From contig NZ_JAGKSQ010000015.1 in assembly GCF_017939705.1 (NCBI RefSeq), forward strand, positions 1 through 39,869: a stretch of DNA of 39,869 nucleotides. Reading direction: 5' to 3'. The position numbers and the translations under genes were made by a program. This document shows, piece by piece, positions 12,833 to 28,241 of this stretch (position 1 is the stretch's first letter; every line of letters begins with the position of its first letter). This DNA is from Halalkalibacter suaedae. GTDB lineage: Bacteria; Bacillota; Bacilli; Bacillales; Bacillaceae_D. Under the pieces are notes generated by a model that had not been told where the DNA came from, did not search any database, and saw nothing but the letters and a program-made list of their open reading frames with translations.

Positions 12833-14980
12833 TTACTTATCTTTCAATCTCAAAAGCCTTAATCCATTCAGAGTCACAAGTAAAGTTGCACCCATATCTG
12901 CTAGAATGGCAATCCAGAGGGTAAGCCAGCCTGGCACGACTAAGAGCAAGGCAACTATTTTAATCCCTAAAGAAAATGAAATGTTCTGCTTAATAATATT
13001 CAACGCTTTTCGGCTTAATTTGATAGTATATGGTAGCTTTGTTAAATCATCACCCATGAGTGCAACATCGGCTGTCTCAAGTGCAGTATCTGTACCTGCT
13101 CCGCCCATCGCAATCCCAACAGTCGAAGCTGCAAGGGCAGGTGCGTCATTTACTCCATCCCCAACCATAGCTACATTGCCGTATTCTGAGCGAAGTCTTT
13201 TAATATAATTTAATTTTTCTTCAGGCATTAACTCTGCCTGAACATCCGTTACACCTACATGTTCACCAATTGCTTTGGCTGTTCGCTCATTATCGCCTGT
13301 AAGCATAATCGTCATTTTGATTCCTAGACTATGGAGCCTCTTAATAACTTCCTGACTTGTTTCCCTTACTTCATCAGCAACTGCAATGATTGCTAGAACT
13401 TCAAGACGCGTCCCCACGATCATTGCCGTTTTCCCTTGTTCCTGTAGTGTTCTAACGTACTCTGCCACGTTAGAAGCTAAATCTCCCTTGTGTAATTCAG
13501 CAAATAAAGATGGACTGCCAATAAAGAACTCATTGCGATTGACTGTACCTCTGATCCCTTTACCAGTGATCGATGTGAAATCATCCACGGTTAGATCCGT
13601 GTAAGAAACCTTTTCTTCTTCTGCCTTGGCCATGATCGCTGAAGCAAGAGGATGCTGCGAACGATATTCCAATGCAGCTATAATCGCTAATAATTCCGCT
13701 TCATTCATCTCACACTGATACGTAATAAAGTCTGTCACAACAGGCTTTCCTTTTGTCAAAGTCCCTGTTTTATCAAACGCAATTGCTTTTAGAGCACCAG
13801 CTTCTTCTAGATAGATTCCACCTTTAACTAAAATACCATTTTTAGCCGCATTACCAATAGCTGTAACAATGGCTACCGGTGTGGAAATCACGAGTGCACA
13901 TGGGCATCCGACAACGAGCACTGCTAACCCTTGATACACCCATAGCTCCCAACTTGCTTGAAACAATAGTGGTGGAATGATGGCTACAAGTGCTGCTACG
14001 ACCATAATAGCTGGCGTATAGTACTTAGCAAATTTATCTACAAATGCTTGGGACGGAGCACGCTCCCCTTGTGCTTCCTCGACAAGATGAATAATCTTGG
14101 CAATAGTCGAATCATTAACATGCTTTGTTACTTCAACTTCAAGCAATCCTTCTTCATTCAAAGTCCCAGCAAAGATGTCATCATCTACTGTTTTTTCAAC
14201 TGGTACCGATTCCCCGGTAATCGCCGCTTGGTTAACCGCTGAATGACCTTTTCGAACAACACCATCCATCGCAATCTTTTGACCGGGCTTCACAATCATA
14301 ATATCTCCAATTTCAATTTCATCGACCCTGACCATCATTTCCTGAGAACCTCTCCTAATTAGTGCCTCTTTTGGAGCGATATCCATCAATGATCGAATCG
14401 ACTGCCTTGCCTTATCCATAGAAAAGCGTTCAAGAGCTTCACTTATCGCAAACAAGATTACGACAATAGCTCCTTCTGTCCATTCTCCAATAATTGCAGC
14501 ACCAATAACTGCAACGGTCATTAATGTCTTCATATCAAATTGGAACCTTAATAAATTATTTAATCCAACCTTGAAGAGTGAAAATCCCCCGATAATAATC
14601 GAGAACACAAAGAAAAGAATCGAGATAAAATCGTCTTCCCCATACATCGCTTGTGTAATGTACCCAACTATCACAAAAAGAGCAGCTGCAATCACATTCC
14701 AATATTTCAAAACGAATGGTACTTTTTTTTCTTCAAAACCTTCTTGATCGTTTTCGGAGATCAACTTTAAATTTTCAAAAGCCCCTGCTTTTTCTAAATC
14801 TTTAATCGTTGTCTCACCATATACCGTTAGCTTTGATGCTCCGAAGTTCACTTTTGCGTCAATCACACCATCCAGGTGTTTCACGTTCTTTTCAAACGTG
14901 GTAGCACAGCCTGCTCAAGTGAATCCTTGCACACGATAGACTGCTTTTTCTCCTTCTAATCCTTCATCAGTCACGTTCAT
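12833..14980 (-). CDS. cadA: Cd/Zn/Pb-type P1B ATPase CadA with in-frame TGA in the metal-binding motif (candidate selenoprotein)
   Basis: A heavy-metal-exporting P-type ATPase, 715 residues if the TGA at 14917-14915 (codon 22) is decoded. The order is: an N-terminal HMA domain (about 12-75) whose motif reads [15 protein letters not shown], with TGA in place of the first Cys of C-x-x-C; membrane helices; the TGES loop (about 255-258); the metal-site CPC (359-361) in helix 6; the phosphorylation site DKTGT (Asp 403); the HP-type nucleotide-binding region (QHPLASAI); and [10 protein letters not shown]. The full length equals normal CadA length (about 710-730), so the TGA is not a truncation. 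Starting after it (GTG 14884) would destroy the HMA motif. The start at ATG 14980 overlaps the end of cadC by 14 bases, with GGGAGG just before it. A SECIS-like hairpin follows the TGA (14882-14900). Selenocysteine decoding is inference; the ATPase identity is secure. Confidence 0.93.
14882..14900 (-). promoter_or_regulatory. SECIS-like hairpin in cadA
   Basis: On the minus strand CACGTT and AACGTG form a 6-bp stem with a 7-nt loop (TGAAAAG). The loop begins after 20 nt from the TGA, and its second base is G. Further pairing (TG with CA, CAGG with CCTG) extends the stem towards the TGA. Known bacterial SECIS elements have a short upper stem, a G among the first loop bases and roughly this distance. 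Function is inferred. Confidence 0.65.
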
Positions 14981-15350
14981 CCACCTCCCTACCATGTACA
15001 ACCGCTGTTTCCACTAACATTCTTACATGCTCATCATCCAAGGAATAAAAGACTAACTTCCCTTCCTTTCTGCTCTTGGCAATGCCTAAATTCTTTAGAA
15101 GGCGTAAATGATGAGAAACAGTTGCCATCGAAGCACCAACAATATTAGCAACATCACAAACACATAATTCACCTTCTTGAAGTAAGGAGTAGGCAATCTT
15201 CAATCTTGTTTCATCAGATAGTGCTTTAAAAATATTCGCAACCGGAGCCAGATTCTCTGTCTCTATAATAGATGAGATTCGCTTAACCTTTGCCTCGTCA
15301 TAGCAAAAGACTTCACAGGTATCATGATCTTGTTTTATCTTTTGAGTCAC
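14967..15350 (-). CDS. cadC: CadC-type ArsR-family metal-responsive repressor
   Basis: A 127-residue winged-helix repressor that leaves DNA when it binds Cd, Pb or Zn. It has both parts of the alpha3N thiolate site: Cys12 and Cys16 in DTCEVFCYDE, and Cys63 and Cys65 in ELCVCDVANI. The recognition helix region is ATVSHHLRLLKNLGI. Sequence and length match CadC of plasmid pI258. The start is GTG at 15350 with GAGGGTG upstream. The gene ends with tandem TGA TGA stops and overlaps the cadA start, so cadC-cadA is one translationally coupled operon. The same tri-base TGA is therefore a normal stop here but apparently recoded in cadA, pointing to context-dependent decoding. Confidence 0.95.
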   Translation of the reverse strand: MTQKIKQDHDTCEVFCYDEAKVKRISSIIETENLAPVANIFKALSDETRLKIAYSLLQEGELCVCDVANIVGASMATVSHHLRLLKNLGIAKSRKEGKLVFYSLDDEHVRMLVETAVVHGREVDERD

Positions 15351-15379
15351 TTTATCACCCTCACTCTAATAATAATTTG

Positions 15380-15433
15380 ATTATAGTCTATGTTTCGTTT
15401 CGAAAATTGTCAATATTATATTCAAATGAATAT
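15380..15433. promoter_or_regulatory. Divergent cad promoter region with CadC-like operator
   Basis: ATATTCA-AA-TGAATAT (15418-15433) is a perfect 7-2-7 inverted repeat resembling the cad operator of ArsR/CadC proteins. On the minus strand TTGACA (15413-15408) followed by TAGACT after 17 bp is a good cadC promoter. The operator is centred between this promoter and the divergent lipoprotein gene, so CadC may control both directions. Confidence 0.65.
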
Positions 15434-15491
15434 TTAATTATTGTCCATGACTTGTTAAAATAAAGTTGTCTTAACAAAATGGAGGGATGAA

Positions 15492-15980
15492 ATGAAGAAG
15501 TTTACACTAGTGGCTTTAGTAGCTGTTATATTCATAACTGGCTGTGCACAGAGCACTGAACCTGCTCACGAGCATGAGCATAATGTACATGAAAAACCTA
15601 TGCAGCCAACTTTAGAATATACAATTGGTAGTGATGATTGGTCAGTCGTGACTACAATGACTGAGAGTCCTGAGGTTTTGGAAGCATATCAATTTGCTGT
15701 GAGCCATCCTGAGGTCTTGAATTATATGCCTTGTTATTGTGGCTGTTATGAAGAAGACGGCCACACAAGTAATACTAATTGCTTTGTTGAAAATGTAGAA
15801 AATGGAATTGCAACTTTGGATACAATGGGTTTTGGCTGAGGGGTTTGTGTTGATATAGCCCGTGCGGCTAAACAAGAATATGAAAACGGCACTTCGTTAA
15901 AAGACATTCGCACAATGATTGATGAGGCCTATAAAGATAGTGAAGTTCCATCAACTCCAACTTCAATGCCAGAGGTCTAA
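15492..15980 (+). CDS. PCYCGC-motif lipoprotein with in-frame TGA at a conserved Cys position (candidate selenoprotein)
   Basis: An exported metal-binding-type lipoprotein, 162 residues if the TGA at 15837-15839 (codon 116) is decoded. It has a signal peptide with lipobox FITGC (Cys18), a His-rich segment (HEHEHNVHE, residues 26-34) and the family signature PCYCGCYEEDGHTSNTNCF (80-98). It continues through the TGA as MGFG-U-GVCVDIARAAKQEY. In relatives I remember a C-G-V-C motif at this place, so TGA replaces its first Cys. The remaining 46 codons are in frame, keep family character (SLKDIRTMIDEAYK) and end at TAA 15978-15980. A SECIS-like hairpin follows (15856-15870). Stopping at TGA would remove the second thiol motif. 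A GGAGGG site lies 5 bases before ATG. It is divergent from cadC-cadA and shares the operator region. Confidence 0.9.
15856..15870 (+). promoter_or_regulatory. SECIS-like hairpin in the PCYCGC lipoprotein gene
   Basis: TAGCC and GGCTA form a 5-bp stem with loop CGTGC, whose second base is G. The loop begins after 21 nt from the TGA, almost the same as in cadA (20 nt). TTGT and ACAA can extend the pairing below the stem. The geometry fits bacterial SECIS elements, although the two hairpins share no primary sequence. Confidence 0.65.
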
Positions 15981-15990
15981 GAAAATTAAC

Positions 15991-16229
15991 GAGGTTGGGA
16001 CAAAAGTGATTTAACTAATAGAAAATCCGAACAATGGGTGGTTGGCGGACCTAAACCGCTCCTGAAATATACTTCGCTTTCCGCGGGAAGCCGCTGAGCC
16101 TCCTCGTGCTTCGCACTGCGGGGTCTCACCTTTGGCTTTTAGGTCCCGCAGGAGTCTACGTATATTTCATCCACTACGTGATTGCATTAATCGGTATTTC
16201 AGTTAGGCTCTTTAGTTATGTCCCAGCCT
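15991..16229. repeat. Full copy of the dispersed 239-bp repeat
   Basis: The copy starts GAGGTTGGGAC and ends GTCCCAGCCT. It is nearly identical to 1876-2114 and the same length. It lies 10 bp after the stop of the PCYCGC gene, so its structured core may serve as that gene's transcript end. No other terminator is visible there. Confidence 0.85.
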
Positions 16230-16282
16230 AAGACAATAAGTGAGACTCGACTTCTGCCAAGACTCCATTAGGCCACATCTAA

Positions 16283-26483: not shown

Positions 26484-27995
26484 CTAACTAACACCATTCT
26501 TCTCTGCATACATCCGCTTATCAGCTATGCTATATAATTGATTTAGTGTCACACCATCCACTGGATAACAACTAACACCAATACTTGCCGACAGAAAGAT
26601 TTCCTCAGAGTTTGATAATAATAACGGGCTACTTATCTCCTTTTGAATCTTTTCAATAATTTTCTCGGTTTCATTAACAGCAAGTAACAGAACAAATTCA
26701 TCCCCACCTAGCCTCGCCGCATGATGGTCCCCGTTACCATCAACAGCTTTTTTAAGGATTGTTGCAATATGCTGTATTGCATGATCCCCAGCTTGATGAC
26801 CATACAGATCATTTATCTGTTTAAGCTTGTTTAAATCAAGTAATAAAAGATTAAACATCTCTTCTCTGTCAAGAAGCTCAGTAATTTGCTTTTCGAAAGC
26901 AGCTCGATTTGACAAACCAGTTAAGATATCATGGTATGCCAAATATTGAACCCGTGCTTCTTTGCTTTTAGCCTCGGTAATGTCTTTCACCATAACAAAC
27001 TGAAGGGTTGTGCCCTCAACATAAATAAAATCAGAATCAATTAATAACGTTTTAGGCTCAAGTAATTTATTTATAAACGATATTTCATAGTTTACCAGCT
27101 TCGTCTGTTCTTTAAATGCCTCACGATGGCGAGCGATAAAGGCTTCTTTATCTACCCCACCTAAAAAAGACAGTACTGATGTCTTAACAAGCTCTTCTCT
27201 ATCCACACCTAGGTATTCAGAAATTTGCGGACTGGCTTCAAGAACAATCGCATCCTGATCCATAATGAGGATTCCTGAGGGGGATCGTTGGAATAAGATG
27301 TTGTAACGTTTCTCATACGACGCTAAATAATCGAATCTTGACATACTTAGAAAGATTGCAATTGCCCAAAACAGAGACCCATGTGGGATAAAATAAAAAA
27401 CGAAATAAAATTTAGTGCTTTGCAATAGTATAGCTCCTGTTAGCATAACGATTGTCCAGAGAAAAAAGGCTAGGATACCTTTAAACCATAGATTAGCAGC
27501 CTTATTTCCCTTCTTCATTTCAATTACAGTTAGAAACAAAGAGATCCCTAAATATGTAAAGTTAATTAACCATAACAAATATAAACCAGTCCCGGGGATA
27601 AATATTGGCTCAAGAGAATTAGGATCCCCCTTCAACATCCATGAATCAAGTGGTGAAGTCGCTAACATAATAATGCCTGGAACAAAGAGGAGTTTAAACC
27701 ATTTCCCATTTTTCTTTTTATACATATTTGCATTTAATAACCAAAGATGAAGAGATATTAAAGAGGCAAGTGTAATCCCCCCGTTCACCCAATAAATCGT
27801 TATCACATCATAATATCTGGGGTACATTACTAGAGTAATAAAAACTCCGGAAAACCACATTGAGGAGAACACATACAGAAGACTACAAGTAATATGTCGA
27901 GCACTATGACGGTTATGACTATATACCATACCAGCCATAAAAATAAAAATACAAGCTGGAACTAGATACAATATACAGTAAATTAAAAATTCCAA
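26484..27995 (-). CDS. Membrane diguanylate cyclase (7TM-PAS-GGDEF)
   Basis: A protein of about 503 residues that makes cyclic di-GMP. Seven hydrophobic segments fill residues 1-220. A PAS domain (about 232-345, ILFQRSPSGILIMDQDAIVLEASPQ) follows, and then a GGDEF domain (about 350-500) with the start signature YHDILTGLSNR, the substrate loop RLGGDEF intact and ASIGVSCYP near the end. An intact RLGGDEF predicts an active cyclase; no EAL domain is present. The frame opens at GTG 28004, but AGGTG spaced six bases from TTG 27995 suggests that start. Its leader carries a c-di-GMP-I riboswitch and terminator, so the enzyme's product probably controls its own expression. Confidence 0.9.
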   Translation of the reverse strand: MEFLIYCILYLVPACIFIFMAGMVYSHNRHSARHITCSLLYVFSSMWFSGVFITLVMYPRYYDVITIYWVNGGITLASLISLHLWLLNANMYKKKNGKWFKLLFVPGIIMLATSPLDSWMLKGDPNSLEPIFIPGTGLYLLWLINFTYLGISLFLTVIEMKKGNKAANLWFKGILAFFLWTIVMLTGAILLQSTKFYFVFYFIPHGSLFWAIAIFLSMSRFDYLASYEKRYNILFQRSPSGILIMDQDAIVLEASPQISEYLGVDREELVKTSVLSFLGGVDKEAFIARHREAFKEQTKLVNYEISFINKLLEPKTLLIDSDFIYVEGTTLQFVMVKDITEAKSKEARVQYLAYHDILTGLSNRAAFEKQITELLDREEMFNLLLLDLNKLKQINDLYGHQAGDHAIQHIATILKKAVDGNGDHHAARLGGDEFVLLLAVNETEKIIEKIQKEISSPLLLSNSEEIFLSASIGVSCYPVDGVTLNQLYSIADKRMYAEKNGVS

Positions 27996-28126
27996 TAAAA
28001 TCACCTACTCACCATGTGGTTATACTAAAATGTCATAAATTTATCTATTTTAAATAGTAAGATTTAGATGATTTCGAACTGAATACTTGAGATCATCATT
28101 TCATCAATGAAATAAAAATTTGCAAA

Positions 28127-28159: not shown

Positions 28160-28241
28160 TATCTTGCAACCCGGCTATCATACTGTGTTTAGACCCGTGG
28201 CTTTGCGTCCTATGCTTTCACATAGTTTGCCAAAAACTATT
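28160..28241 (-). promoter_or_regulatory. Cyclic di-GMP-I (GEMM-I) riboswitch
   Basis: On the minus strand the conserved GEMM-I blocks appear in order: GGCAAAC, GAAA tetraloop between CTATGT and GCATAG, GACGCAAAGCC, GGTCTAAAC, and ATGATAGCCGGGTTGC. The tetraloop hairpin and the TAGCCGGG receptor/P3 segment are characteristic. It is followed by an intrinsic terminator and the diguanylate cyclase gene. Whether ligand turns the gene on or off cannot be decided by eye. Confidence 0.9.

Follow-up and report, generated by a model that had tools for sequence, protein, structure and literature searches.

A PCYCGC lipoprotein gene of Halalkalibacter suaedae with an in-frame TGA that is very probably read as selenocysteine

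Introduction

Is the TGA inside a small lipoprotein gene of Halalkalibacter suaedae read as selenocysteine (Sec), and what would such a residue do on the outer side of the cell membrane? The gene lies at positions 15492-15980 of contig NZ_JAGKSQ010000015.1 (assembly GCF_017939705.1), a stretch of 39,869 nucleotides that was analysed whole and is called the window here. It belongs to the PCYCGC family (PF13798) and diverges from a cadC-cadA pair, a 141-bp gap separating cadC from the PCYCGC gene. The original prediction, made from the letters of the DNA, had proposed the product as a candidate selenoprotein. By comparing homologs, genomes and gene neighbourhoods, we find that the product is very probably a small lipoprotein on the outer side of the cell membrane, with selenocysteine at the internal TGA. 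Loci and genomes of the comparison carry our own L and G numbers.

Results

The reading frame beyond the TGA

The gene and its parts are as follows.

15492..15980, plus strand: gene for a PCYCGC selenolipoprotein of 162 residues, Sec116 being predicted; PF13798 matches across the read-through frame
15481..15486, plus strand: GGAGGG, likely ribosome binding site, read in the sequence
15492..15545, plus strand: signal peptide ending at the lipobox ITGC (Cys18), read in the sequence; LPAM_1 gives 13.9 bits, below its cut-off of 20
15729..15746, plus strand: PCYCGC motif, residues 80-85, invariant in 47 aligned rows
15837..15839, plus strand: in-frame TGA, codon 116, predicted selenocysteine of U-G-V-C, aligned with the Cys of homologs
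15846..15848, plus strand: Cys119, partner in the UxxC, invariant in 47 aligned rows
15856..15870, plus strand: hairpin TAGCC-CGTGC-GGCTA, predicted selenocysteine insertion sequence (SECIS)
15978..15980, plus strand: TAA stop, end of the gene, read in the sequence

The frame starts with ATG at 15492, reads MGFG-TGA-GVC-VDIA and stays open for 46 codons from the TGA to the TAA at 15978, the same reading as in the original prediction. PF13798 matched the read-through frame with 118.7 bits (cut-off 25), residues 9-160 covering profile positions 3-153 of 153. The CYCXC (seleno)protein model NF041379 gave 71.5 bits, under its cut-off of 90 (profile 13-89 of 90); the UGVC falls within the matched residues 61-147.

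Our homolog set comprised 84 genes, 37 with TGA at the CGVC position (35 from a scan of named genomes, the window gene and L154) and 47 with Cys (44 from the scan and L156-L158). L111, which is frameshifted, and the duplicates L151, L152, L153 and L155 were removed before counting. The scan was keyed on the peptide patterns YMPCYCG and CYEEDGH, and the best 80 of 85 loci were kept (TGA in 35, Cys in 44, and L111), so this sample leans to the window's subfamily. The TGA genes come from several phyla, in records titled Halalkalibacter, Cytobacillus, Neobacillus, Mesobacillus, Ammoniphilus and others, and also in Chloroflexi and Gemmatimonadetes assemblies. When 47 of the 84 proteins were aligned across residue 116, every row (47/47) had Cys or TGA there, and a homolog lacking both was looked for among these rows and not found. 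This agrees with the earlier claim that the TGA replaces the first Cys of a CGVC motif.

In a less biased sample of 398 genomes of the phylum the subfamily profile matched 8 genes, of which 4 have one TGA. Within the window's family PF13798 was matched in 19 of 41 genomes, one internal TGA occurring in 3 of the 19 genes and none in the other 16. PF13798 also matched in 213 of 397 genomes of the order; the matches listed there do not reach the divergent, low-scoring type, so no TGA-gene count is drawn from them. Phage records gave no match to the PCYCGC gene, and the 17 plasmid records that matched were each below 60% identity.

In a tree of the 47 aligned proteins (30 Sec, 17 Cys) three label changes are needed. 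Rows with Cys from Oceanobacillus, Lentibacillus and Kyrpidia are nested in mostly-Sec groups, which suggests reversal from Sec to Cys, in a tree with weak support for 19 of its 44 inner branches.

When 17 of the 37 TGA genes were compared pairwise in every combination, the 30 codons 3' of the TGA differed by a pooled synonymous proportion (pS) of 0.586 and a nonsynonymous proportion (pN) of 0.168; for the 40 codons 5' of it these values are 0.749 and 0.123 in the same genes. Between the window and H. akibai, synonymous divergence (dS) after the TGA is 0.44 and nonsynonymous divergence (dN) 0.082, and dN/dS after the TGA ranges from 0.06 to 0.33 across the 12 listed pairs for which a value could be obtained. 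The next stop lies 44-47 codons beyond the TGA in all 17 genes tested. Judged by these substitution patterns, the reading frame beyond the TGA is under protein-level selection.

A conserved hairpin after the TGA

The hairpin at 15856-15870 had been part of the original prediction, whose coordinates and geometry proved exact: its 5-nt loop, CGTGC, begins 21 nt past the TGA and has G as second base and U as third. Bacterial SECIS elements were taken as hairpins just past the UGA, 16-37 nt away, with G among the first two loop bases, and the hairpin fits this description. All five pairs are present in 36 of the 37 TGA genes, the remaining one having four, as against none of the 47 Cys genes, two of which have four.

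Covariation was scored in 36 aligned TGA genes, 33 of them distinct, L149 being excluded for its additional codon. Of the cells 99.4% are paired, and both sides had changed in 17 cells. The covariation score was 0.330 versus 0.070 in shuffles, a value reached by 0 of 500, and versions of the stem slid along the alignment gave at most 0.071. RNAalifold independently recovers the same five pairs, and the aligned rows show the stem to be kept by joint changes of Ile, Ala and Glu/Asp codons. As a control for codon choice, synonymous codons were resampled with the window's codon usage for every row; five of five pairs would be expected in 5.6 of the 33 distinct TGA rows and were found in 32. Across the TGA-gene set, these comparisons indicate that selection acts on the RNA.

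The Chloroflexi relative L149 (6178-6225) reads U-GNI-C, where an extra residue separates U from C, and has the same hairpin displaced by a codon. Its contig also holds a Cys paralog, L148.

Selenocysteine machinery in the genomes

The window genome encodes tRNA-Sec with anticodon TCA (60.2 bits), SelA, SelB (359.4 bits, cut-off 242) and SelD (413.6 bits, cut-off 125), the last with a TGA of its own (AGUGCK). SelA was counted only above 340 bits in the window's family and above 380 bits at the loci. In the family, tRNA-Sec occurs in 19 of 41 genomes, and SelA in exactly these 19 (in two as split genes). SelA was present in 34 of 36 TGA-gene genomes versus 4 of 15 Cys-gene genomes (Fisher p 1.8e-6, uncorrected for kinship); weak SelA matches of 39-42 bits (Pfam cut-off 22.8) in 3 of the 15 Cys genomes were left uncounted. 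Similarly, tRNA-Sec scored above its gathering score in 34 of the 36 TGA genomes (L138 at 47.2 against 47), the misses being L078 and L150, versus 3 of the 15 Cys genomes.

The alternation of Cys and TGA, the conservation of the hairpin, coding after the TGA, the Sec machinery and its co-occurrence with the TGA genes through SelA together make it very likely, to a degree that leaves little doubt, that the UGA at codon 116 specifies selenocysteine. The proposal of a candidate selenoprotein is upheld on these grounds, for a family that already figures as a selenoprotein in a published list (PMC13188914).

The TGA genes met in the window genome, where no systematic scan was made, are selD, two cadA genes and the PCYCGC gene. 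Formate dehydrogenase was considered as a further selenoprotein and rejected, the genome's one match (600 bits, under the cut-off of 666) being without an internal stop. Between selB and selD (L010, 12007-14522) lies a phosphonate-type ABC transporter, with binding protein PF12974, permease and ATPase; it is perhaps, at a guess, an importer of a selenium oxyanion.

Genomic context in relatives

Gene neighbourhoods were compared between the 37 TGA loci and 29 of the 47 Cys loci, many of the latter from Sporosarcina or its kin and with flanks of differing length. A P-type ATPase gene lies within 3 kb at 15/37 TGA loci versus 0/29 Cys loci. CopC was found at 8 TGA loci, CopD at 7, YtkA at 5, ZnuA at 6 and a thioredoxin-like gene at 8; the numbers at the Cys loci are 1, 0, 0, 2 and 0. 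At least one metal cluster accompanies 21/37 TGA loci versus 5/29 Cys loci. At 12 TGA loci (the window, L071, L072, L074, L076-L081, L086 and L093) cadC-cadA lies upstream on the opposite strand, adjacent or with intervening genes, and the cadA nearby has TGA in 8 and Cys in 3 (L071, L078, L081), that of L086 being unmatched by the motif pattern. In H. wakoensis the gene order is copC-copD-PCYCGC(TGA)-thioredoxin-like-YtkA, and there as in H. akibai the PCYCGC gene sits between copD and the thioredoxin-like/YtkA genes. No member of a copC/copD cluster was found near the PCYCGC gene in the window. Because relatives of the gene stand among cadCA, copC-copD, YtkA and thioredoxin-like genes, extracytoplasmic handling of soft metals is our best guess at its function, one that we favour somewhat.

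Two further elements of the window were observed. A 243-bp interspersed repeat lies just 3' of the PCYCGC gene (15990-16232), with two imperfect inverted arms of 26 nt (16063-16088 and 16144-16169); it occurs at no fewer than 40 places of the genome including its own, with 87-100% identity over nearly its full length, and at one partial place (203 candidates, 40 scored). A c-di-GMP-I riboswitch (28162-28241, minus strand, 71.7 bits) stands ahead of a GGDEF-type gene (26484-28004, GGDEF by eye).

The neighbouring cadC-cadA genes

The genes that diverge from the PCYCGC gene, and the gap between them, contain the following.

14967..15350, minus strand: ArsR/SmtB repressor gene, taken as cadC from its position; NF033788 99.7 bits, cut-off 55
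12833..14980, minus strand: cadA-type heavy-metal P-type ATPase gene with an internal TGA; TIGR01525 619.5 bits, cut-off 346.25, HMA domain across the TGA
14915..14917, minus strand: TGA in place of the first Cys in the HMA metal motif, GFT-U-AGC; 16 TGA cadA genes aligned
14883..14899, minus strand: candidate hairpin following the cadA TGA, not supported by covariation
15365..15380, no strand: CadC-operator-like inverted repeat, one mismatch to TCAAATN4ATTTGA
15422..15437, no strand: CadC-operator-like inverted repeat, one mismatch to TCAAATN4ATTTGA

That the adjoining cadA also has a TGA at a conserved Cys, as had been noticed at the outset, was seen again at 14915-14917. Within the window's family the same TGA recurs in 10 cadA genes spread over 8 genomes, two of these genes being in the window genome, and the Sec machinery is present in 7 of these 8 genomes, G026 being the exception (Fisher p 0.012). 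The second CadA-type ATPase of the window genome (L061, 292-2511, minus strand) has its TGA at GLH-U-AGC, with a different candidate hairpin sequence. The 8.7-kb contig L066 of G026 holds a TGA cadA with cadC-, copC-, copD-, DsbA-, DsbB-like and transposase-like open reading frames (by eye).

The sequence TCAAATN4ATTTGA was taken as the presumed CadC operator consensus. Sites within one mismatch of it number two in the window, both inside the 141-bp gap, where 0.47 are expected window-wide. Like repeats precede cadC in several relatives (by eye).

Structure

An AlphaFold model built from the 47-row alignment is confident over residues 41-160, with block means of 95-99. A Foldseek search with this model gave nothing at E <= 0.001, the top match being a weak one to the CcmH periplasmic domain. 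A CcmH-like thiol protein would be marked by a common fold and an LRCxxC motif; in a profile comparison with CcmH the alignment is confined to 32-33 columns following the motif, at a probability of 18-20% and a pairwise E of about 0.001. A search for solved relatives by sequence gave three matches, none convincing (E 0.35-0.83).

Discussion

The explanation that best fits our data, to which we give a probability of about 0.9, is a Sec116 PCYCGC lipoprotein whose decoding is directed by a hairpin; Sec insertion itself, control by CadC and the metal role are what we infer. SelB and tRNA-Sec would insert Sec at UGA 116 under direction of the hairpin at 15856-15870, and the lipid-anchored product would be extracytoplasmic. 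The gene would be transcribed divergently from cadC-cadA and probably be repressed by CadC, and its product could cooperate on soft metals with the CadA pump, for which Sec is likewise predicted. On the outward side of the membrane a thiolate-selenolate site may be built from the CYCGC cysteines, Cys97 and Sec116/Cys119, and would capture or redox-cycle ions of the Cd/Zn/Pb/Cu type.

Several of our observations weigh against one or another part of this explanation. Two of the five covariation measures for the PCYCGC hairpin were not clearly above shuffles: pairs changed on both sides (2 versus 1.8; 409/500) and further pair types (5 versus 3.3; 24/500). Synonymous resampling yields five of five pairs in 18% of trials for the window gene, so that the hairpin of a single gene is weak evidence. 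The original prediction had held that two neighbouring genes with the same event make chance very unlikely; the two TGAs are real, but the weight laid on two genes and one hairpin was too great, and the strong evidence for the Sec reading is comparative. The cadA hairpin pairs in 85.4% of cells versus 84.7% in shuffles of the 16 aligned TGA cadA genes, and because this difference is so small we call that hairpin a plausible SECIS and go no further. In H. akibai the PCYCGC gene has TGA and CadA has Cys, so the two TGAs are not strictly coupled. When the window was shuffled, 11 of 100 trials gave at least two sites of the operator pattern, a score that covers the number of sites and not their falling in one gap. 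None of the counted metal clusters is present at 16/37 TGA loci, and one is present at 5/29 Cys loci. Among the genomes, the L126 assembly has tRNA-Sec (68.6 bits) and is without SelA, and the L150 assembly has SelA with tRNA-Sec below the gathering score. L078 (Bacillus sp. B1-b2) has a TGA gene, and a search for SelA and tRNA-Sec found neither; G026 has a TGA cadA, no tRNA-Sec that we could find and a SelA match of 20.5 bits. Over 12.5 kb L078 shares 97.1% identity with L081, which lies in a genome that does have SelA, and the TGA genes of L078 and G026 are probably recent transfers.

With the decoding granted, the role of Sec116 allows a second interpretation, in which the UxxC is the redox centre of a thiol-disulfide oxidoreductase that works with a thioredoxin-like partner and keeps the cysteines of extracytoplasmic proteins, for example copper proteins, reduced. 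We regard this as possible and lean away from it: the match to CcmH is weak, and metal genes are commoner neighbours than thioredoxin-like ones (21 versus 8 of 37). Thiol-disulfide exchange and soft-metal handling are in any case compatible.

The other alternatives concern the TGA itself. It could be a true stop, with a functional lipoprotein of 115 residues followed by a relic, and in L078, where the TGA is retained, the product should indeed end there; this is highly improbable in view of the coding constraint, the conserved length and the covariation of the hairpin, all of which lie past the TGA. Still less probable is the insertion of another amino acid, through a changed code or a suppressor tRNA, for which we saw no positive evidence. 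TGA is the stop codon of 4 of the 27 window genes examined, so the genetic code is not changed and a genome-wide reassignment of TGA is ruled out, a tRNA-Sec with the TCA anticodon is present, and the occurrence of TGA genes follows that of SelA from genome to genome. A sequencing error, or a Cys gene decayed into a pseudogene, likewise found nothing in its favour and is ruled out by the same TGA in 37 genes and by coding selection on either side of it in the 17 tested.

The Sec116 lipoprotein reading can be extended to a CadC-controlled module of two selenoproteins for soft metals, with Sec at the metal-entry motif of CadA inside the cell and Sec in the PCYCGC lipoprotein outside, as a metal ligand and not a redox residue. 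Such a module might have spread through Bacillaceae as a moving cassette and be among the main reasons for keeping the Sec machinery. We consider this larger scheme speculative and rather doubtful.

A selenolipoprotein gene with a selected SECIS hairpin appears to be conserved in many culturable relatives of Bacillus, with links to cadmium and copper genes. Standard annotation can be expected to truncate genes of this type at their TGA, and the sole matching curated (seleno)protein model leaves the window protein and 10 of 10 relatives under its cut-off. A role for Sec as metal ligand in resistance proteins becomes testable here, and a 2026 review states that Sec roles of the metal-ligand type need more study (PMC13188914).

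The PCYCGC protein is not a new kind of selenoprotein, its family being already in a published list, and its placement among the metal-handling genes of Bacillus relatives looks new. In the literature that we could search, subscription journals being mostly beyond reach, neither PCYCGC selenoproteins of Bacillaceae nor a link between them and cadCA had been reported.

Comparison with known systems

OS_HP4, a CYCXC family protein, reportedly comes from a gutless-worm symbiont. With OS_HP4 and its model NF041379 the window protein shares the Pfam family and the UxxC pattern; ten relatives (8 TGA, 2 Cys, some partial) score 61-74 with this model, all below 90. The window protein differs in being a lipoprotein encoded beside cadCA in Bacillaceae. 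OS_HP4 (PF13798, UxxC) is listed as a selenoprotein in the 2026 review (PMC13188914), and its UxxC motif is also tabulated in PMC9312934. A 2006 survey counted three selenoproteins in Bacillales (PMC1794560).

The Cys-type PCYCGC lipoproteins of Bacillales, such as AOT13_14730 of Parageobacillus thermoglucosidasius (PMC13068155), share the family, the lipobox and the cysteines with the window protein. The 47 Cys genes compared here, AOT13_14730 not among them, have Cys in place of the TGA and are without the hairpin, and none of the 29 whose context was compared has a P-type ATPase near.

In Bacillus subtilis, CopC, CopD and YtkA domains serve copper import (YcnJ) and oxidase assembly (CtaK), in an account that does not mention PCYCGC (PMC13344008). 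Neighbours like those of the CopC-CopD-YtkA/CtaK system surround the PCYCGC gene in H. akibai and H. wakoensis.

Finally, a cation-transporting E1-E2 ATPase with UxxC is also in the list of the 2026 review (PMC13188914), and Sec E1-E2 ATPases have been counted as 32 proteins in 25 organisms (PMC5029168). The window CadA likewise has U-A-G-C in its HMA metal motif and scores above the TIGR01525 cut-off; what sets it apart from the known Sec E1-E2 ATPases is that its gene is divergently paired with that of a second predicted selenoprotein.
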